A DNA stretch of 64,000 nucleotides, taken from NCBI GenBank assembly GCA_023251535.1, contig JAHEYP010000009.1:36009-100008 (forward strand), written 5' to 3'. Origin of the DNA: Bacteroidota bacterium. Lineage in GTDB: Bacteria; Bacteroidota; Bacteroidia; AKYH767-A; OLB10. This document shows positions 2,680 through 14,707 of the stretch, piece by piece; positions within the stretch are counted from its first letter, which is position 1; each line of letters opens with the position of its first letter. The notes beneath the pieces were generated by a model that did no database searches, was not told the origin of the DNA, and saw only the letters and a program-made list of their open reading frames with translations. A program made the translations under genes and the position numbers.

Positions 2680-3388
2680 GCTTCCACGTGAAAAATCAAT
2701 ACGACAAGTGCTATTAACCCATTTTGGTATTCCTTTAAAAATATTCATTTATATTCAGTTTACTGTTTTTAGCCTAAAATGGGAGTTAATTAGGTTTATT
2801 TATGGTCTGCGAGATAAATATTGTCATAAATCAACGTACAGCACGTGGCACAAGCATACTAGATTATCGAGACTTGCGATTTCCGGACAATTACATCTCA
2901 TTAAAGCTGATCAATAGCGTTTGCAATGGGAAATTCAGCGTCCAGGATAAATATTCATTTAAATTCATTTCACTTTTTTAATAGGCTTATTGATCATTGC
3001 TCTCGGTACTGAAATAACTAAAAACTGATCAATAATTAGCTTTAAAAATGAACCGTGGAACCCATTTTTGGGTAAGGGGTACGACTTATATAGCCACCAG
3101 TTATAGAAAACAGAGGCTTATATGAGGTATCAAATGATCAGCTCGAAAGTATAATTGAATGTTTCACGGGGCAAATTATCGTAGTAGCAGTGCTATGGTT
3201 TAGTGTGGTACTCGCTAGTTAAAATTAAAAACGTGGAACAAACAAAGAGCTCTGCCACGTGAAAAAGTGATAACAGAAAACCAATTGTGTGGCACGTGGC
3301 AAACAAGAAAAAATGGACCATGGCGAATAGTATTTCCTATGTTCTTAGGCTTTTCAGATAGTTTATAGAAAGGGTTTCACGTTAAAAA
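2680..3388. repeat. Field of degenerate parS-like palindromes
   Basis: Relative to TGTTNCACGTGNAACA, sites with three mismatches occur at 2680-2695, 3251-3266 and 3288-3303, all keeping the CACGTG core, and at 3160-3175 and 3373-3388 with a one-base change in the core. A weaker one is at 2837-2852, and a right half-site with GGAACA is at 3230-3240. They sit beside the better sites at 3441, 3501, 5389 and 5618. They may be weak ParB sites, worn-out copies, or partly chance. I saw only a few other CACGTG hexamers scattered in the remaining 60 kb. Confidence 0.5.
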
Positions 3389-3404
3389 AAGTAAAGACAA
3401 AAAG

Positions 3405-3433
3405 AAAGGGCGACTGAATCAGTCGCCCTTTTT
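3405..3433. terminator. Strong bidirectional terminator downstream of mnmG
   Basis: A 12-bp perfect stem, AAAGGGCGACTG paired with CAGTCGCCCTTT around the loop AAT, is followed by T5 on the plus strand and by a T-rich run on the minus strand. It would stop mnmG transcripts, which end at 3515 on the minus strand. It would equally stop any transcript coming rightward out of 2.3-3.4 kb. Confidence 0.85.
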
Positions 3434-3440
3434 AATGAAA

Positions 3441-3456
3441 TGTTCCACGTGGATCA
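3441..3456. promoter_or_regulatory. parS-like ParB site, one mismatch
   Basis: TGTTCCACGTGGATCA matches the consensus TGTTNCACGTGNAACA except for one base in the right arm. It lies between the mnmG terminator and the mnmG stop codon. Confidence 0.7.
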
Positions 3457-3500
3457 TTTCGGATAATTATTCATTTATATTCATTTATGGAGCCTAAATA

Positions 3501-3516
3501 TGTTTCACGTGAAACT
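3501..3516. promoter_or_regulatory. parS-like ParB site at the 3' end of mnmG, one mismatch
   Basis: TGTTTCACGTGAAACT differs from the consensus only at the last base. It overlaps the first two bases of the mnmG stop codon in window coordinates (3515-3516). Confidence 0.78.
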
Positions 3517-5386
3517 ATCTACCCATATGGACAAGTAATACAGAGATATCTGAAGGTGTTACTCCACTTATACGAGCTGCTTGACCTAGCGTAGAAGGCC
3601 TAATAGCACTTAATTTCTGCCTAGCTTCAGTAGAAAGACTAGAAACTTGACTAAAATCGAAGCCTTCTTTTAGTTTTACGTACTCCAAACGACTCATTTT
3701 ATCTACTAATTCTTGTTCTCGACCGATATAACCTTCGTATTTGAAGTTAATTTCAGCTGATTCGATCACTAATCTATCAACTTGTAATGACTCAATAGCT
3801 GATTTTAGCGTGGCAGATGCATTAATGAAATCCACGATACCAACTTGAGGTCGTAATAATATAGATTTTGCTTTTACACGCTGATTCAGTTCACCCGTGG
3901 CAAGAGTATTTAACCATGGATTCACTTCAGATGGATCAATAGATAAATTGGCTATTAAATCCATAACACGTTGAATATCAACTACTTTTGATTTTACACG
4001 GTTGTAACTTTCTTCCGTGGCAAGCCCAATTTCGTGTCCAAGAGGAGTTAAACGTATATCTGCATTATCTTGTCGCAAAAGCGTTCTAAACTCCGCACGG
4101 CTCGTGAACATTCTGTATGGTTCTTCTGTACCTTTCGTAATAAGATCATCGATTAGAACGCCTATATAGGCTTCTGAACGACTCAATACAACTGGAGTTA
4201 AATCATTAATCTTCCGGTGCGCATTTATTCCAGCCATCAATCCTTGACAAGCCGCTTCTTCATAACCAGTCGTTCCATTAATCTGTCCAGCGAAATAAAG
4301 ACCAGATATTAACTTAGTTTCTAAAGTACTCGAAAGTTGAGTAGGTGGGAAATAATCGTACTCAATTGCATAACCAGGTCTGAACATTTTTACGTTTTCA
4401 AACCCTTCAATCTTCCTCATTGCTCGGTACTGAATATCCTCCGGTAAGCTACTTGAGAAGCCGTTAACGTAGATTTCGCAAGTATCCCAGCCTTCGGGTT
4501 CAACAAACAATTGGTGTCGCTCACGGTCACTAAAACGGTTAATCTTGTCTTCAATACTCGGGCAATATCTTGGTCCTAATCCTTGAATTCGACCGGTAAA
4601 CATTGGGGACTTTTCAAAACCCTCCTGCAGGATATCATGCACCGCTTGGTTCGTATAAGTAATCCAGCAGCTGCGTTGTTTGGTAAGATAGGGGGTATCA
4701 GAATAGCTAAACTTATCAGGATTCTCATCTCCGAATTGCTCCTCCATCTTGGAATAATTTAGAGATCTTCCGTCGATACGAGCTGGTGTTCCAGTCTTCA
4801 TACGACCACTTTCGAAACCTAAACCAACCAGTTGCTCTGTAATTCCTGTAGCTGCTTTCTCTCCGGTTCTACCTCCACCAAACTGCTTCTCTCCGATATG
4901 AATTATGCCATTCAGGAAGGTACCATTAGTTAAGATTACACTCTTAGAACGGAAAGAAATTCCCATCCCTGTAGTCACTCCAACAGCTCTACCGTCCTCT
5001 ACGATAATACCATTAGCCATATCTTGCCAGAAGTCGATATTAGTCGTTTCTTCTAGCTTCTTTCTCCACTCTGCAGCGAAGAGCATTCTATCATTTTGTG
5101 TCCTGGGAGACCACATAGCAGGTCCTTTAGACCTGTTCAGCATCCTAAATTGAATAGCAGATTTATCACTCACTATTCCGGAATACCCTCCTAAGGCATC
5201 TATCTCTCTCACTATTTGACCCTTTGCAATACCTCCCATAGCCGGATTACAGCTCATTTGGGCGATAGTTTGCATGTTCATAGTGATTAACAGCACCTTA
5301 GAACCCATATTGGCAGCGGAAGCAGCGGCTTCACAACCCGCATGTCCGGCTCCAACAACAATTACATCATAATTTGGGTAAATCAT
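3515..5386 (-). CDS. mnmG: tRNA uridine-5-carboxymethylaminomethyl modification enzyme MnmG (GidA)
   Basis: MnmG is the FAD-dependent partner of MnmE. Together they build the cmnm5 group on wobble uridine-34 of certain tRNAs in the cytoplasm. The 623 residues equal the family's usual length. The FAD-binding GAGHAG motif is at residues 12-17, and the family signatures GGIAKGQIVREIDALGG, NGTFLNG and GPRYCPSIEDKINRF are present. The C-terminal MnmE/tRNA-binding region follows a long helical linker. The start ATG at 5384-5386 is fixed by the domain start at MIYPNYDVIVVGAG. The gene is bracketed by parS-like sites: one touches its stop, one sits two bases before its start where a ribosome-binding site would lie. 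In many bacteria gidA is near the chromosome origin, and the sites here agree with that. Confidence 0.97.
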   Translation of the reverse strand: MIYPNYDVIVVGAGHAGCEAAASAANMGSKVLLITMNMQTIAQMSCNPAMGGIAKGQIVREIDALGGYSGIVSDKSAIQFRMLNRSKGPAMWSPRTQNDRMLFAAEWRKKLEETTNIDFWQDMANGIIVEDGRAVGVTTGMGISFRSKSVILTNGTFLNGIIHIGEKQFGGGRTGEKAATGITEQLVGLGFESGRMKTGTPARIDGRSLNYSKMEEQFGDENPDKFSYSDTPYLTKQRSCWITYTNQAVHDILQEGFEKSPMFTGRIQGLGPRYCPSIEDKINRFSDRERHQLFVEPEGWDTCEIYVNGFSSSLPEDIQYRAMRKIEGFENVKMFRPGYAIEYDYFPPTQLSSTLETKLISGLYFAGQINGTTGYEEAACQGLMAGINAHRKINDLTPVVLSRSEAYIGVLIDDLITKGTEEPYRMFTSRAEFRTLLRQDNADIRLTPLGHEIGLATEESYNRVKSKVVDIQRVMDLIANLSIDPSEVNPWLNTLATGELNQRVKAKSILLRPQVGIVDFINASATLKSAIESLQVDRLVIESAEINFKYEGYIGREQELVDKMSRLEYVKLKEGFDFSQVSSLSTEARQKLSAIRPSTLGQAARISGVTPSDISVLLVHMGR

Positions 5387-5388
5387 CG

Positions 5389-5404
5389 TGTTTCACGTGG
5401 AACT
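5389..5404. promoter_or_regulatory. parS-like ParB site immediately upstream of the mnmG start, one mismatch
   Basis: TGTTTCACGTGGAACT differs from the consensus only at the last base. On the minus strand it ends two bases before the mnmG ATG, so ParB bound here could affect mnmG expression. Confidence 0.78.
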
Positions 5405-5617
5405 ATTAACAAATATTTGATGTTCTAGAATATAACCTATTGAAAATCAATAATTTATAATTAAAACATTCAGTTAATAAAGGTAAGCAGACTGATTCAT
5501 ATCATCAAAGGAAATCTGTAAAAAATAAAATCATGGAACAAAACAGCCAAAAAGGGGTAAATTTTTAGCTGAATAATAAATGAATAATATTGAAGCGATA
5601 GGTAAATTGCTCCAAAT

Positions 5618-5633
5618 GCTTCCACGTGAAACA
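5618..5633. promoter_or_regulatory. parS-like ParB site, two mismatches
   Basis: GCTTCCACGTGAAACA has a perfect core and right arm and two mismatches at the left end. It is the leftmost-reading member of the cluster upstream of mnmG. Confidence 0.6.
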
Positions 5634-6103
5634 TATTGCACTCTGAAGATAACTGATGAGTTAAATTGGTTAAGTATAAAAAATACATGGAGGGAGGGAG
5701 GATTAATCAAAGTGCTCTTATAACTTCCCATTTTAACTTATGATAATCTATCAAAAAAGGGAAGAGCATTACTCAGAGAGAAAATGTTCCATTTAGAGAG
5801 ATTTACTATAATAAATAGATAGCGTTTTAGCTGAATAATGAGAGAATAAAAGACTTTCACCAATGAATTATATGAAAGAGAAGTAACGAATACTCTACAC
5901 ATTCAAACAAAACCATTAGAGAGGTAAGAATGCACATTAATTATTAAAATGCTGGGGAATTATTCAAGCCTTTTTCAGAGTGAAAACAACCTAAAATTCG
6001 GAGTGAAATTAGTCTACCAAAATCATCATAAAAAGTGCCAATAATAGCTTACAAAACCCAATTTTTACCTCTGAAATAGCTTAAAAAACAAGAGCGTAAC
6101 TAA

Positions 6104-6532
6104 TTAGAAATGCTTCTTTCTTTTCTTAAGAAAAAGATCTTCTTTTTCTCTCATAATAGCTTTCTTTTTGGGTGACTTATCTCCATAGCCACAGAGGTGT
6201 AAAACACCATGAACCATCACTCGATGTAATTCATCAATTAAGTCTATCGAAAGCTTCGCAGCATTATCTTTTACTCTGTCAATACTGATATAAAGTTCAC
6301 CTTCTATCTGAGAAGGAACAACAGTATTCTCGAAAGTAATAATATCAGTTAACGTATCATGGCTCAGAAAATCGACATTCATCTTGTGAAGATGATCATC
6401 AGAAACCAGGATAATATTTAAATCAACAAGCTCATGACCTTCTGACTTAACTACGTCAGCGAGCCATGAGCTTATTTTACGTTTATCTTTTAAAAGATAG
6501 TTGGTGTCTTCAGAAAAGAAGCGAACTGCCAT
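6104..6532 (-). CDS. ybeY: Endoribonuclease YbeY (rRNA maturation factor)
   Basis: YbeY is a metal-dependent single-strand RNase for 16S rRNA 3'-end maturation and ribosome quality control. The 142 residues fit the family. The metal-site motif is H108-G-V-L-H112-L-C-G-Y-G-D118. The third histidine of the textbook HGxLHLxGYDH motif is an aspartate here. As I recall, Bacteroidota YbeY proteins commonly read HGxLHLCGYxD, so this is probably normal for the phylum. The N-terminal half contains NVDFLSHDTLTDIITF, the usual substrate-side signature. It lies 5 bp after the ATP-binding protein gene in a probable operon with the DUF4175 gene. Confidence 0.93.
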   Translation of the reverse strand: MAVRFFSEDTNYLLKDKRKISSWLADVVKSEGHELVDLNIILVSDDHLHKMNVDFLSHDTLTDIITFENTVVPSQIEGELYISIDRVKDNAAKLSIDLIDELHRVMVHGVLHLCGYGDKSPKKKAIMREKEDLFLKKRKKHF

Positions 6533-6537
6533 AACTA

Positions 6538-6969
6538 CTAGTTATTGATATGTCCGCCGGTCTTGAAATACAACTCAACAACTCTTCCATTCTCAGAAAA
6601 AATGATCTGATCGGCTAAATGTTTCATAAGAAACACCCCACGGCCTGTAGGCTTTTCGAGGTTCTCCGGATCAGTAGGATCGGGGAGGTTTAGGTAATCG
6701 AAGCCATGTCCTTCATCAGAAATGGTAAATGCTATTTGTTCTGAATCGACCTCATAAGCGATATTTACTTTCTTATCAGGGTCGTATTTATTACCATGTT
6801 GCATGGCATTATTGACTGCTTCAGTAACCGCTACCAGCATATTTCCATAGCATTCTTCGTGAATACTGTGTTCCGTTTTGATTTCATCAATTAGCTTTTC
6901 TACTAAATTGATGCTTTCTGGTTGTGAAATAATCTGCATGGTATTGGTGTATTTCTCGGTGTTCATCAT
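6538..6969 (-). CDS. Anti-sigma-factor-like ATP-binding protein (HATPase_c_2)
   Basis: A small GHKL-fold protein of the RsbW/SpoIIAB type: N-box EAVNNAMQHG, G1 box ISDEGHGFDY, G2 box PTGRGVFLMKHLAD. It has no phospho-accepting histidine domain. Such proteins bind ATP and sequester a sigma factor or phosphorylate an anti-anti-sigma partner, but no partner gene is seen here. The start is placed at the ATG at 6967-6969, five bases after the stop of the upstream DUF4175 gene, whose last codons supply a GAGG ribosome-binding sequence. A second ATG follows directly. The nearly overlapping arrangement suggests translational coupling, then ybeY follows. Confidence 0.85.
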   Translation of the reverse strand: MMNTEKYTNTMQIISQPESINLVEKLIDEIKTEHSIHEECYGNMLVAVTEAVNNAMQHGNKYDPDKKVNIAYEVDSEQIAFTISDEGHGFDYLNLPDPTDPENLEKPTGRGVFLMKHLADQIIFSENGRVVELYFKTGGHINN

Positions 6970-10339: not shown

Positions 10340-10419
10340 CTATACAAAATTAACAATAACGTTTGTTTAAATAACAACGTCTTATGTTCTTAATTCGTAC
10401 GTTATAAACAAGTAAAAGT

Positions 10420-11301
10420 TTACACTCCCAGACGACCAAATACCCCTAAAGGTAAATTTACTCCTGAAGTAGCTGGTAAAAATATCTCACCCCATTGAGC
10501 AGAATCGGCTCTTTTACCAAAGGCTTCTTGTACTAAATTCTGAATTATAAGTGCTGAAAATCCGAGTGAATAGGTGTTTAATACAAGGAAAGAGTCCTGA
10601 GGTTCAAGTATTTGAGCTACTCCATGAATCATTTCATTGATCATTTCCTCAAGTTTCCAGTTCTCACCGTTGGGTCCGTGGCCATAAGCCGGAGGATCGA
10701 GAATAATACCATTGTATTTTTTTCCACGTTTTACCTCTCTACGAACAAAAGTCATGGCATCTTCCACTAACCAGCGGATATTATCGAGATTACTCAACTC
10801 CATATTCTCTTTCGACCAAGAAACCACCTGTTTAATAGAATCGAGGTGAATAACATCGGCACCAGCAGCTTTAGCAGCCAAAGAAGCCCCACCTGTATAA
10901 GCGAAGAGGTTCAATACTTTAGGTTGATCTACCGTTTTTTTAATCTTAGTAACCTGGTTATAGATAAAGTCCCAGTTTACCGACTGCTCAGGGAAGATCC
11001 CTACATGTTTAAAAGAAGTTAATCCCAAACGGAAGACAATGTCGTGATTCCCGACATGATACTTCACCTTCCATTGATCGGGCATTTCCTTGAATTTCTT
11101 CCAAGTTCCTGCTGAACTCGATTTAGAGATAAACTTAACATGAGCACGTTTTTCCCATTCTTTATAATCCATGCGTCGTCTCCAAACTGCTTGAGGTTCA
11201 GGACGAATAGTGATATATTTACCGAAACGTTCCAGCTTTTCGAACTCACCGCAATCGATTAATTCGTAGTCAGGAAAGTGAGTAGGGGATAATAGTTGCA
11301 T
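10420..11301 (-). CDS. Class I SAM methyltransferase, RlmI-like (COG1092 type)
   Basis: Cytoplasmic methyltransferase of the group that includes 23S rRNA m5C methyltransferases. Motif I is VLNLFAYTGGAS (residues 129-140), followed by an acidic residue after strand two (HLDSIKQVV). The catalytic-type motif LDPPAYGHGPNGE lies at about 201-213. No PUA domain is seen at the N-terminus, so it is shorter (293 residues) than E. coli RlmI, and the RNA target is uncertain. The ATG at 11299-11301 is the first in frame. It is the last minus-strand gene before the candidate replication origin and is transcribed away from it. Confidence 0.85.
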   Translation of the reverse strand: MQLLSPTHFPDYELIDCGEFEKLERFGKYITIRPEPQAVWRRRMDYKEWEKRAHVKFISKSSSAGTWKKFKEMPDQWKVKYHVGNHDIVFRLGLTSFKHVGIFPEQSVNWDFIYNQVTKIKKTVDQPKVLNLFAYTGGASLAAKAAGADVIHLDSIKQVVSWSKENMELSNLDNIRWLVEDAMTFVRREVKRGKKYNGIILDPPAYGHGPNGENWKLEEMINEMIHGVAQILEPQDSFLVLNTYSLGFSALIIQNLVQEAFGKRADSAQWGEIFLPATSGVNLPLGVFGRLGV

Positions 11302-11436
11302 GCTGCAAAATTAGAATAAAAGACACAATGTGAATGATTTAACCCATGAATTGTAAAAATCAATGATTACTAATAACTAGATTATATAGATAATTAATAA
11401 TCAAAAAAGTTATTCTTAACATTCATTTTTAATGAG

Positions 11437-11445
11437 TTATGCACA
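11437..11445 (+). promoter_or_regulatory. DnaA box, exact TTATNCACA match
   Basis: TTATGCACA in the left, most AT-rich part of the candidate oriC. Confidence 0.65.
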
Positions 11446-11645
11446 TAAATAATCAAAGAAAGTCATATATTTGAGAGTGAAAAAGGGATAAAACAGTCAC
11501 CGGTAACAACATTGTTCATATGCATGTTAATATCTCCGAAATCTGTTAGGAATTATATGAAAAGAATATTTGGAATTCCGAATTGAGCTGTGCTTATATT
11601 TCCACATCGGACTACCAAATATAACGGGGGTTGATTTACCAAAGG

Positions 11646-11666
11646 TTATCCACGTTATAATCCACA
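11646..11666 (+). promoter_or_regulatory. Pair of tandem DnaA-like boxes
   Basis: TTATCCACG (11646-11654) and TAATCCACA (11658-11666) lie in the same direction, 12 bp apart start to start, each with one mismatch to TTATCCACA. Close tandem spacing is typical of cooperative DnaA binding at origins. Confidence 0.62.
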
Positions 11667-11771
11667 AAAAAAGAAGGATTTCGACAAAAACTAATGAACG
11701 TCAAGAGTAATTAACAACTGTTAATATCCTAAACGCTTTCTTCATTATCAATCATTTAAGCAGATGATAAC

Positions 11772-11780
11772 TGTGTATAG
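11772..11780 (-). promoter_or_regulatory. DnaA-like box, one mismatch
   Basis: Reads CTATACACA on the minus strand; E. coli oriC contains a TTATACACA box. Confidence 0.45.
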
Positions 11781-11954
11781 ACCGTTAATAACCTTTCATA
11801 ACGATTCGAATCAAGTAAAAGGGAATAATAATATCAACCGAACTAACACCCTATTATAAACAAAACATCTTTTTAAAATTAAAATAATATTTAATGGTAA
11901 TGTGTGTTAAGAAAAAGAAACGGGCATTTTTTAAATTTTGACCGCCTGACGGGG

Positions 11955-11962
11955 TATCTTTG
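11955..11962 (+). promoter_or_regulatory. Bacteroidota-type -7 element TATCTTTG
   Basis: Matches TAnnTTTG exactly. A TTTG at 11937-11940 could be the -33 element but the gap of 14 bp is short. It would start transcripts just before a 36-codon open frame and read on towards nadA. Confidence 0.4.
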
Positions 11963-11967
11963 TCAAC

Positions 11968-12078
11968 ATGACGGCTTTAAACAACAAAAAATCTCTTGCG
12001 GGTCTTCCGGCCGAAGTCAGAAGGCCTAATTTTTTAAAATTTTTCGGGGCTGACGCCCTATTTTCGTGGGTTCAATAA
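11968..12078 (+). CDS. Possible 36-residue leader peptide or chance open frame
   Basis: The frame begins MTALNNKKSLAGLPAEVRRP and ends in SWVQ. It starts with ATG six bases after the TATCTTTG element, so a transcript from there would be nearly leaderless. The local base composition is richer in GC than the rest of the origin gap. I do not recognise the peptide. It may be a short leader of the nadA transcript or mean nothing. Confidence 0.2.
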   Translation: MTALNNKKSLAGLPAEVRRPNFLKFFGADALFSWVQ

Positions 12079-12085
12079 ACCTACG

Positions 12086-12093
12086 TAGTTTTG
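12086..12093 (+). promoter_or_regulatory. Probable nadA promoter (-7 element TAGTTTTG)
   Basis: Exact TAnnTTTG match 77 bp before the nadA ATG, with a TTTTCG at 12061-12066 placed 19 bp upstream as a weak -33 element. The exact DnaA box at 12139 would lie in the resulting untranslated leader. Confidence 0.5.
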
Positions 12094-12138
12094 CAATTAC
12101 AAAAAGAAATTTTCCGCCGGGATTTCCGTTTTAATTTC

Positions 12139-12147
12139 TGTGGATAA
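12139..12147 (-). promoter_or_regulatory. DnaA box, exact TTATCCACA match
   Basis: The perfect consensus box on the minus strand, 24 bp before the nadA start codon. It could belong to the origin, or make nadA respond to DnaA, or both. Confidence 0.65.
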
Positions 12148-12170
12148 CAACTGAAGAAATACATACCCCA

Positions 12171-13163
12171 ATGATTACCCAAAACGAATTAGAGCGCGTA
12201 GGATACGTTAAAGAGCAGGTGAGCGCGCGTCTAGATCTTTTCGAAGAGATAAAACGGCTTAAAGCCGAAAAAAACGCCATTATCTTGGCGCATTACTACC
12301 AGGATGGCGATATTCAAGATATTGCCGACTATATTGGCGACAGTTTAGGATTGGCACAACAGGCCGAAAAAACGAAAGCCGACATTATTGTTTTCGCTGG
12401 TGTTCACTTTATGGCAGAAACGGCGAAACTGCTAAATCCCAATAAAAAGGTGGTTATGCCAGATTTTAGAGCTGGCTGTTCATTAGCCGATTCTTGTCCC
12501 CCGGCCGACTTCAAAAAGTTCAAAGACGCCCACCCCGACCATATTGTAATCAGCTACATCAACTGTACGGCTGCCATTAAAGCATTAAGTGATATTATAT
12601 GTACATCGAGCAATGCGGTGCAGATCGTTGAAAGTTTACCGAAAGATCAAAAGATCATTTTTGCTCCCGATAAAAACCTTGGCGCTTACGTAGCGAAAAA
12701 AACAGGCCGGGATTTAGTATTGTGGGATGGAGCATGCATGGTGCACGAAATTTTCTCGCTGCAAAAAATCGCGAAGCTAAAAGTGGAACATCCTGATGCA
12801 TTATTGTTAGCACATCCAGAATGTGAAGAGCCAATTTTAAAAATCGCCGACTTCGTCGGATCAACAACAGGCATTTTAAAATTTGCGAAAGAGAATAGCG
12901 CAAAAACATTTATTGTAGCCACCGAGAGCGGAATATTGCACCAAATGCAAAAAAATTGTCCTGAGAAAACATTTATTCCGGCGCCACCAGACAACAATTG
13001 TGCATGCAACGATTGTCCACATATGAAACTAAATACTTTAGAAAAAGTATATTTATGCATGAAACACGAGTTGCCCGAAGTAAATATTGATCCGCAACTT
13101 CAAGCTCCTGCATTAAAATCGCTGAAGCGCATGCTGGAAATTTCAGCATCACTCGGACTTTAA
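12171..13163 (+). CDS. nadA: Quinolinate synthase NadA
   Basis: NadA condenses iminoaspartate with dihydroxyacetone phosphate to give quinolinate, the first ring in de novo NAD synthesis, using a 4Fe-4S cluster. The 330 residues and signatures [38 protein letters not shown] and [15 protein letters not shown] are typical. Likely cluster ligands are C103, C189 (DGACMVHE) and one cysteine of the CACNDCPHM motif at 277-282. Start ATG at 12171. It is the first rightward gene after the candidate oriC. nadB and nadC are not in the window. The repeat protein gene follows 11 bp downstream, so the two may be co-transcribed. Confidence 0.96.
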
Positions 13164-13174
13164 TAACATCCTTT

Positions 13175-14707
13175 ATGGTTAACGGTATAAGAAAAATCAA
13201 AAATTATCATTGGGCAGTAATATTGTTATTGCTTCCAGCTTTTGCATTTGCACAACCCGGCAATACGATTACCGACGGACCACAAAAATTTTATTATCCC
13301 GGAGGAAAAGTAAGCTCAGAAGGAAATTTTGTGAACGGACTACCCGAAGGCGTTTGGAAATCATATTATACTGATGGTATATTAAAATCGGAAGGAAACA
13401 GAGTTAACGGAAAGCTTGATGGTACGTGGAGTTTCTATGCCGAAAATGGAGTAAAGGCGAGTGAATATAATTACATCAACGGCATTGAAAACGGATGGGA
13501 AAAACAATTTTATCCCGACGGAAAATTGGCGAGCGAGCGATGGAAAAAAAACGGAGTAGCCGATAGTATTTCAAAAATTTATAGCGACAAAGGATTTCTT
13601 CAAAAAATAATTCTGTTGAAAGATGGCGCCGAAAATGGACTTGCGCGAGAATTTGCGGAAGACGGCAGAGTTATAACGGTAACGACTTACCGAAATGGGT
13701 TTTTTGTAAAAGAAGAAAAGATCAATCGTGTAGATAAATTCGGATTCAAGCAAGGAACATGGAAATCGTTTTACGACGACGGAAGCACCAAGGAAGATGG
13801 CACCTATAAAGACGACAAGAAAAATGGAGTTTTCAGATGGTACACAATAGAAGGAATTCTAAATAGAATGGAAATTTGGAAGAACGATGAATTAGTTCCA
13901 GATGAAGCTGTGAATGTAAAACTCGATATAAAGCGCGACTACTATAACAATGGTCGTCCGAAGTCGAGCGTGAATTTAATCAACGGAGTAAAAGAAGGAG
14001 TATATCGCGACTACGATAATTTAGGAACCATAACGGGATCGAAATTATACGACAAAGACAGAGTAATAGCAGAAGGAGGAATTGTTGACGCCAACGGGCA
14101 GCAGCAAGGAGAGTGGAAATATTTTTACGCTGATGGAAAAGTAAAATCGAAAGGATTTTTTAAAGACGGCAAGCGCGACGGACAGTGGACGTTTTATTAT
14201 CCGAATCAGAAAGTACAACAAACCGGAAGCTACAAAGACAATCAGCCGATCGGAAATTGGAAATGGTATTATGCCAACGAACAGTTATTGAGAGAAGAGA
14301 ATTACAAGAACGGGAAAGAAGACGGAGCCTCTGCGGAATACGACGAAGGCGGAAATGAAATTGCGAAGGGAAGTTATGCCGACGGCAAGAAAGAAGGCGC
14401 CTGGAAGCTTAAAAACGGCGAATACATAGCAGAAGGAAACTACGTAGAAGGCAATATGGATGGAATGTGGAAACAATTTTATCAAAGCGGAAAGATTGCC
14501 TTTGAAGGAGAATATTTCGAAGGACAAGAAAACGGCCTTCATAAATACTATTTTGACAACGGCAAGGTAAAAGAAGAAAGGACCTATCGCTTAGGACTAA
14601 AAGAAGGTATTTGGAAAGCCTACGACAGCACAGGCGAACTTTTACTATCAACCACCTATCGTGGAGGAGTGATGCAGAAGTTGGATGGAGTGAAGGTGGG
14701 GGAGTAG
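13175..14707 (+). CDS. Exported MORN-variant repeat protein (YwqK-like)
   Basis: 510 residues. A basic N-terminus and hydrophobic run (WAVILLLLPAFAFA, then QPG) form a signal peptide. The rest is about twenty repeats of roughly 22 residues of the form G-x-W-x-x-Y-Y-x-D-G-K-x-x-x-E-G-x-Y-x-x-G, the MORN_2 pattern annotated as YwqK-family antitoxin-like in many genomes. No toxin gene is nearby, so the antitoxin label should not be taken literally. Similar proteins in Bacteroidota sit in the envelope. There is no T9SS sorting domain. The stop codon touches the left arm of a palindromic element. Confidence 0.8.
   Translation: MVNGIRKIKNYHWAVILLLLPAFAFAQPGNTITDGPQKFYYPGGKVSSEGNFVNGLPEGVWKSYYTDGILKSEGNRVNGKLDGTWSFYAENGVKASEYNYINGIENGWEKQFYPDGKLASERWKKNGVADSISKIYSDKGFLQKIILLKDGAENGLAREFAEDGRVITVTTYRNGFFVKEEKINRVDKFGFKQGTWKSFYDDGSTKEDGTYKDDKKNGVFRWYTIEGILNRMEIWKNDELVPDEAVNVKLDIKRDYYNNGRPKSSVNLINGVKEGVYRDYDNLGTITGSKLYDKDRVIAEGGIVDANGQQQGEWKYFYADGKVKSKGFFKDGKRDGQWTFYYPNQKVQQTGSYKDNQPIGNWKWYYANEQLLREENYKNGKEDGASAEYDEGGNEIAKGSYADGKKEGAWKLKNGEYIAEGNYVEGNMDGMWKQFYQSGKIAFEGEYFEGQENGLHKYYFDNGKVKEERTYRLGLKEGIWKAYDSTGELLLSTTYRGGVMQKLDGVKVGE

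Follow-up and report, generated by a model that had tools for sequence, protein, structure and literature searches.

Results

The gap between the methyltransferase gene and nadA

The stretch of DNA analysed here, referred to as the window, is 64,000 nucleotides long and corresponds to bases 36009-100008 of the 100-kb contig C7 in a draft genome of 73 contigs. At positions 11302..12170 it holds an 869-bp non-coding gap between two divergent genes. An ORF scan of the gap found no reading frame of at least 80 aa, its GC content is 31.4% compared with 33-42% in 2-kb windows across the 64-kb window, and a search of 10400-13200 for structural RNAs found nothing in Rfam at E values up to 1. The position and the AT-rich, non-coding nature that an earlier note on this DNA had given for the gap both hold. 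The gap and its immediate surroundings are laid out as follows:

10420..11301, minus strand: gene of a SAM-dependent methyltransferase (RlmI-like), left neighbour; PF10672 above cut-off
11302..12170, no strand: non-coding gap, candidate oriC; absence of ORFs, 31% GC and DnaA-box count
11938..11962, plus strand: promoter-like TTG...TAnnTTTG, rightward; putative, read by eye
12171..13163, plus strand: nadA, right neighbour; TIGR00550 at 403.1 bits, cut-off 262.9

The RlmI equivalog models scored far below their cut-offs on the methyltransferase, and the TTG...TAnnTTTG motif is what we take to be a promoter motif of the Bacteroidota type. Two segments upstream of nadA, 11925-11962 and 12028-12067, look alike by eye, both passing from an A/T run to CGCCTGACGGGG or GGGGCTGACGCCC and then to TATCTTTG or TATTTTCG, as if a duplication had taken place upon the arrival of nadA.

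DnaA boxes in the gap

Seven DnaA boxes, two exact and five with one mismatch, were found in the gap. The earlier note had correctly reported the two exact boxes and the close tandem at 11646/11658, and its tally of three one-mismatch boxes has to be raised to five. The boxes are listed here with their state in L031, the corresponding locus of the nearest relative:

11329..11337, minus strand: one-mismatch box TCATTCACA from the motif scan; conserved in L031
11437..11445, plus strand: exact box TTATGCACA from the motif scan; conserved in L031
11646..11666, plus strand: tandem boxes TTATCCACG and TAATCCACA in a 12-bp register (11646-11654 and 11658-11666, one mismatch each); identical in L031
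11772..11780, minus strand: one-mismatch box CTATACACA; in L031 GTATACACA, likewise a one-mismatch box
11854..11862: one-mismatch box inside the AT-rich block described below
12139..12147, minus strand: exact box TTATCCACA, adjoining the nadA start; absent in L031

First-order Markov simulations with the composition of the gap, run twice with 1,000 replicates each, gave 1.49 and 1.37 expected boxes, compared with the seven observed (P 0.000 and 0.003). When 869-bp windows were moved in steps of 100 over 929,116 bp, or 25% of the genome, a count of seven was unique to the gap among 9,243 windows, the runners-up holding six, and the second-best window on the gap's own contig lay 36 kb away. Dense box clusters elsewhere had been named in the earlier note as grounds for abandoning an origin at this site; none with seven boxes was encountered in this quarter of the genome. 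The presence of two neighbouring exact boxes is in itself unremarkable, since about three pairs as close as this are expected and at least two others within 0.86 kb, on C12 and C14, occur among the 100 exact sites listed out of 117; the stepped scan passed over the pair on C14. The 64-kb window as a whole showed no enrichment of boxes (70 compared with 83.4 expected).

GC skew and gene direction

When GC skew is cumulated along the 100-kb contig, the lowest point falls at base 11256 of the window, which is 46 bp away from the gap. With 40-kb flanks, the V-shaped change of skew at the gap is the strongest in the sample (0.102, the next being 0.066), and the divergence of gene direction is also highest there, by a hair (0.53, the next being 0.52). 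With 20-kb flanks the gap (0.103) is surpassed by three places on other contigs and by C7:41250, which lies 6.5 kb to the left, at about 5.2 kb of the window, and has the best V at this scale; when the flanks are 10 kb, at least three sites outside C7 equal or exceed the gap. The sampled contig pieces mostly run one way in cumulative skew, C14 downwards and C42, C46 and C62 upwards.

Among ORFs of at least 100 aa, 24 of the 28 on the left side of the gap are minus-strand and 27 of the 32 on the right side plus-strand, and gene direction accounts for part of the local V. After correction for orientation, the skew is -0.037±0.014 on the left (contig 20-47 kb) and +0.018±0.014 on the right (48-74 kb), with +0.038 and -0.027 beyond these stretches to the left and right, respectively. 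With a corrected V of 0.028 the gap ranks sixth in the sample, and the sign change there is weak. At third codon positions, the plus-strand genes of the right arm have a skew of -0.053, compared with +0.067 to +0.160 for leading genes on C14, C46 and C62, and this lack of a leading-strand look among the right-arm genes is the main weakness of the evidence from the species itself. Within the sample, the orientation-corrected V is lowest, and inverted, at G000 C42 near 101 kb, a place that may lie near the terminus.

Strand signals and neighbouring genes in relatives

In three congeners (G001, G004 and G005) genes to the left and to the right of the gap both have a leading-like third-position skew, with left/right values of 0.214/0.217, 0.126/0.190 and 0.301/0.214, among which one value is just 0.126 and another comes from 369 sites. 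Calibration used 12 stretches of G004 and G005 with at least 400 sites on both strands, and none of these exceeded 0.12 on both; a further stretch left out for its few sites, L163, would exceed it on both (0.133 from 196 sites, and 0.149). Along the 27-kb right arm of G004 the third-position skew goes down to 0.093. In G020, which belongs to another genus of the same family, plus-strand genes change from -0.286 on the left (five genes, 1,243 sites) to +0.050 on the right (two genes, 905 sites), a switch that gene direction cannot explain because genes on the same strand are compared. The flanks of the gap in G007 show no clear switch.

The genes beside the gap change from genome to genome. Among 70 loci compared, many of them with short flanks, nadA stands beside the methyltransferase gene only in our genome, in its near twin G003 (locus L031) and in G007. 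The gap of the congeners G001, G002, G004 and G005 lies between the methyltransferase gene and a MORN-repeat gene, and no nadA was found there. In G012 the gap still adjoins nadA, and the methyltransferase block lies 10.7 kb off behind a ribonuclease R-like gene; in G020 it is nadA that lies 5.8 kb off, and the gap still adjoins the methyltransferase gene. On contig C159 of G012 (L082, L083), the block from the methyltransferase gene to mnmG follows, in the same direction, behind nadA, gltX, glnS and the ribonuclease R-like gene, an order such as might be left after a rearrangement around the origin.

A member of another family, G038, changes the sign of its third-position skew somewhere between about 320 and 420 kb. 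Its parS and mnmG are found at 389 kb, the skew minimum of the 180 kb examined at 324 kb and the densest box window, with four boxes, at 356 kb, and a pair of exact boxes lies about 25 kb from mnmG; because the positions given by skew, boxes and parS differ, the origin of G038 is not narrowed to one place. Its methyltransferase gene, at 872 kb, lies away from the skew switch. Thus the suggestion of the earlier note that the nadA/methyltransferase gap might serve as a marker for oriC in this lineage has to be given up, considering that the pair occurs in so few of the loci, that congeners have no nadA at the gap, that one or the other gene has moved in G012 and G020, and that the methyltransferase gene of G038 is off the switch.

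Conserved elements of the gap

The box cluster, an AT-rich block and a bipartite element recur in nine genomes from three genera, two of these genomes, our own and G003, being near twins. The two further elements are:

11569..11596, plus strand: bipartite element TTTGGAA-N16-GCTTA, from the aligned gaps of relatives
11840..11911, no strand: AT-rich block from GAACTAACA to GTTAAG, candidate unwinding element; holds the box at 11854-11862

A search of 24 genomes of the family with the DNA of the gap returned, beyond our own genome and G003, one homologous match (G005:C47) and five short matches that were taken as chance; one match of the latter type, G010:C24, has three boxes within 130 bp and no larger cluster. 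In G007 the gap holds nine boxes, compared with at most three elsewhere on its 73.6-kb contig and at most four in a further 63 kb. In four congeners it holds 9-15 sites within one mismatch of TTATNAACA, a DnaA box whose position 6 is A and not C, compared with at most five elsewhere on the same contigs and at most six in 294 kb of control DNA from two congeners; the gap of G020 has 10 such sites, compared with two elsewhere on its contig and at most six in 131 kb of control. The lead of G012 is small (four canonical boxes compared with three, and 10 TTATNAACA-type sites compared with seven), and canonical boxes by themselves are not exceptional in G004 (five, control six), G005 (six, control five) or G020 (four, control five). 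In simulations, exact TTATNAACA was enriched in the gaps of six relatives (P 0.014 or less) and not in our own gap (P 0.14) or in L031 (P 0.10), and sites within one mismatch of it were enriched in every one of the eight simulated gaps (P 0.007 or less).

An alignment of eight gaps from three genera places TTTGGA, 17 bases and GCTTA at one place with one spacing. The pattern WTTTGGA-N17-GCTTAW is present in all nine fully seen gaps including our own, G006 being left out as its gap is cut by a contig end; the pattern was derived from these same gaps, and the nine represent about four lineages, since the set includes the near twins G003 and our own genome as well as four congeners. A looser form occurred five times on both strands of 1.417 Mb of control DNA. 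Over 61 genomes the pattern gave 65 matches, nine of them at these gaps, compared with 45 for the reversed pattern, so that away from the gaps its frequency is near chance. To the right of the bipartite element, the AT-rich block begins with ACTAACA and continues for about 55 AT-rich bases, with a 64-bp core of 81% AT; it can be made out clearly in our genome, in G012, in G020 and in four congeners, and is blurred in G007. The AT-richest 60 bp of the gap (87%) lie elsewhere, within 11373-11440. The block at 11840-11911 may act as the DNA unwinding element, and the bipartite element is possibly a new origin element.

parS-like sites around mnmG

Further left in the window, parS-like sites surround mnmG, which lies 5.9 kb from the gap with four genes in between, the methyltransferase gene included:

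3373..6635, no strand: parS-like cluster around mnmG, six sites (3373, 3441, 3501, 5389, 5618, 6620) with up to three mismatches
3501..3516, no strand: parS-like site with one mismatch to TGTTTCACGTGAAACA, the only one in the genome with fewer than two
3515..5386, minus strand: mnmG (gidA); TIGR00136 at 824.5 bits, cut-off 524.85
5389..5404, no strand: parS-like site just upstream of mnmG, two mismatches, exact to the 14-bp core GTTYCACGTGRAAC

Six sites in 3.3 kb compare with 0.04 expected from the 46 sites with up to three mismatches in the whole genome (Poisson P 6e-12), and the cluster lies about 5-8 kb from the gap. C7 accounts for 2.7% of the genome and carries three of its six sites with at most two mismatches (P 4e-4), one of them located some 18 kb further to the left. 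In the class sample of 61 genomes (G000-G060), to which ours belongs, the strict core GTTYCACGTGRAAC was present in 52, including ours, and no genome had the reversed pattern that served as control. In all 41 genomes for which both places are listed, again including ours, a core lies inside mnmG or within 1 kb of it, and 69 of the 73 sites listed are at mnmG, the remaining four being on other contigs. Among the abstracts and excerpts surveyed, none presents parS on either side of mnmG as the rule for this class. As a lineage marker, mnmG with its parS sites is better than the nadA/methyltransferase pair. The spacer between mnmG and ybeY (5387-6103) measures 717 bp and carries two parS-like sites, and roughly 150 bp separate the corresponding matches in congeners. 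One mnmG match, G041 C53:28015-29937, contains a TGA stop.

dnaA and parB lie elsewhere in the genome

The genome has one match to dnaA, at C62:130604-131995 (534 bits, cut-off 343.9), and one to parB, at C46:150159-150662 (TIGR00180 at 186.8 bits, cut-off 58.45), the latter beside neither mnmG nor the gap. The dnaA product (L071) can be aligned with solved DnaA over residues 16-93 and 144-480. Its residues 449-456 read DHATVLHA compared with DHTTVIHA in 8btg, which we take to be the DnaA of Bacillus subtilis; this stretch presumably reads the box, and a link between the substitution and the altered, TTATNAACA-type sites is speculation. An origin linked to dnaA was considered and rejected: the gene is on C62, where the cumulative skew rises as far as dnaA, falls over about 6 kb and then rises once more, and no minimum coincides with the gene. 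The earlier note had pointed out that in Bacteroidota oriC is often not next to dnaA, and the place of the gene agrees with this and with PMC4755523, which is cited here, like the other papers below, from excerpts.

Discussion

The gap at 11302-12170 is very probably the chromosomal replication origin (oriC), as the earlier note had proposed from the sequence. This reading is well supported by features that were seen directly, namely the box motifs with their top rank in the sample, the skew minimum of the contig with the V at 40-kb flanks, and the divergence of gene direction, and further by the parS-like cluster, the recurrence of the module in relatives, the leading-like genes of the congeners, and the dnaA and parB matches, with dnaA lying elsewhere.

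It is improbable that the origin instead lies near mnmG and parS in another gap, such as the mnmG-ybeY spacer, and that the gap studied here is secondary, for instance a site of DnaA titration. Such an arrangement would be in line with the two Flavobacteriaceae in which, according to the excerpts, oriC is placed at mnmG (PMC11278836, PMC12843772), with the peak of the V at 20-kb flanks 6.5 kb to the left, at about 5.2 kb of the window, and with G038, in which the exact-box pair lies about 25 kb from mnmG, so that distances vary. Against it, no other window of the contig holds seven boxes, and the next best is 36 kb away from the gap; the cumulative minimum adjoins the gap, and leading-like genes diverge at the gap in three congeners.

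Still less likely is a purely regulatory role, in which the gap would be a long control region for the divergent nadA and methyltransferase genes and the boxes would be due to chance or mark promoters controlled by DnaA. The genes do diverge, a promoter-like motif is present on the nadA side, AT-rich DNA yields more chance matches, the exact box at 12139 adjoins nadA and is not conserved, and canonical boxes are unexceptional in two congeners. However, the box count exceeds that of composition-matched simulations, the cluster and the AT-rich block persist where nadA is absent or moved or where the methyltransferase gene has moved, and on the 12.7-kb contig of G020 the sole window with more than two matches is at the gap and not at nadA. 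Since the neighbours are swapped while the cluster stays, which would not be expected of a promoter of either gene, a reading as promoter alone was put aside. Hardly credible, finally, is an ancestral origin that has recently shifted in our species and left a decaying cluster, which would fit the leading-strand skew missing from our right arm and present in congeners and the one exact box that differs from the near twin, but not the two exact boxes of our gap, compared with at most one in those of congeners, nor the tandem boxes and bipartite element that are intact in both near-twin genomes.

For the gap as oriC, the motifs suggest a sequence of events. DnaA would bind the tandem boxes at 11646/11658 together with the spread boxes, and a DnaA filament could then open the AT-rich block, after which helicases would load and two forks would depart in opposite directions. 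ParB bound to the parS-like sites around mnmG would move the duplicated origin, and the bipartite element may bind a further origin protein. DnaA binding, opening and segregation are all read from motifs here. More tentatively, and with doubt prevailing, we consider that the locus might represent a new origin architecture, in which the bipartite element TTTGGA-N17-GCTTA, fixed in place and spacing, would be recognized by an undescribed protein, the DnaA box would be relaxed to TTATN[A/C]ACA in that position 6 may be A, and the whole module would remain intact amid changing neighbours, near a parS-flanked mnmG.

Parts of this picture were to be expected. In the excerpted accounts, the oriC of Bacteroidetes is usually far from dnaA (PMC4755523), origins of 476 bp in Prevotella intermedia (PMC4755523) and 649 bp in Elizabethkingia meningoseptica (PMC8994065) have been predicted, and oriC was placed at mnmG by Ori-Finder and skew in Mariniflexile (PMC11278836) and Algorimicrobium (PMC12843772), so that both an origin away from dnaA in Bacteroidota and an oriC at mnmG in two Flavobacteriaceae are known already. 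The gap resembles the Ori-Finder-type origins, as far as these are described in the excerpts (PMC4755523, PMC8994065), in its few hundred bases, its several DnaA boxes and its distance from dnaA, and it differs from them in the bipartite element of fixed spacing, in the prevalence of TTATNAACA-type sites in congeners, and in its neighbours, the methyltransferase gene with nadA or the MORN-repeat gene. With the two Flavobacteriaceae it shares mnmG as a mark of the origin region, although mnmG is here 5.9 kb away and flanked by parS, with the four genes intervening.

Location of parS near the origin is general knowledge (PMC7333895, in excerpt), and a parS cluster together with skew, with support from coverage, has placed origins in a set that includes two gut Bacteroidetes (PMC10197239, in excerpt). 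The sites around mnmG are like a ParABS centromere in their TGTTTCACGTGAAACA consensus, which also served to place the origins of PMC10197239, in their clustering near the origin and in the single parB match; as a difference, parB is on C46, away from mnmG and the gap. The likeness to the basal unwinding system excerpted from PMC8287927 covers boxes beside an AT-rich block; the search rule given there for DnaA-trios, which asks for at least three NAN triplets no more than 16 bp from a box, is a loose one.

When uncultured Bacteroidota are represented by draft genomes, placing the origin is difficult, and dnaA is misleading. Here an origin was placed in the absence of a complete genome, by means of boxes, parS and neighbours that change around a constant core. 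The tie between parS and mnmG, which held in 41 of 41 genomes with both listed, suggests a simple marker of the origin region that could be useful, for example, in growth-rate estimates based on coverage, and the bipartite element raises the concrete question of which protein binds to it.
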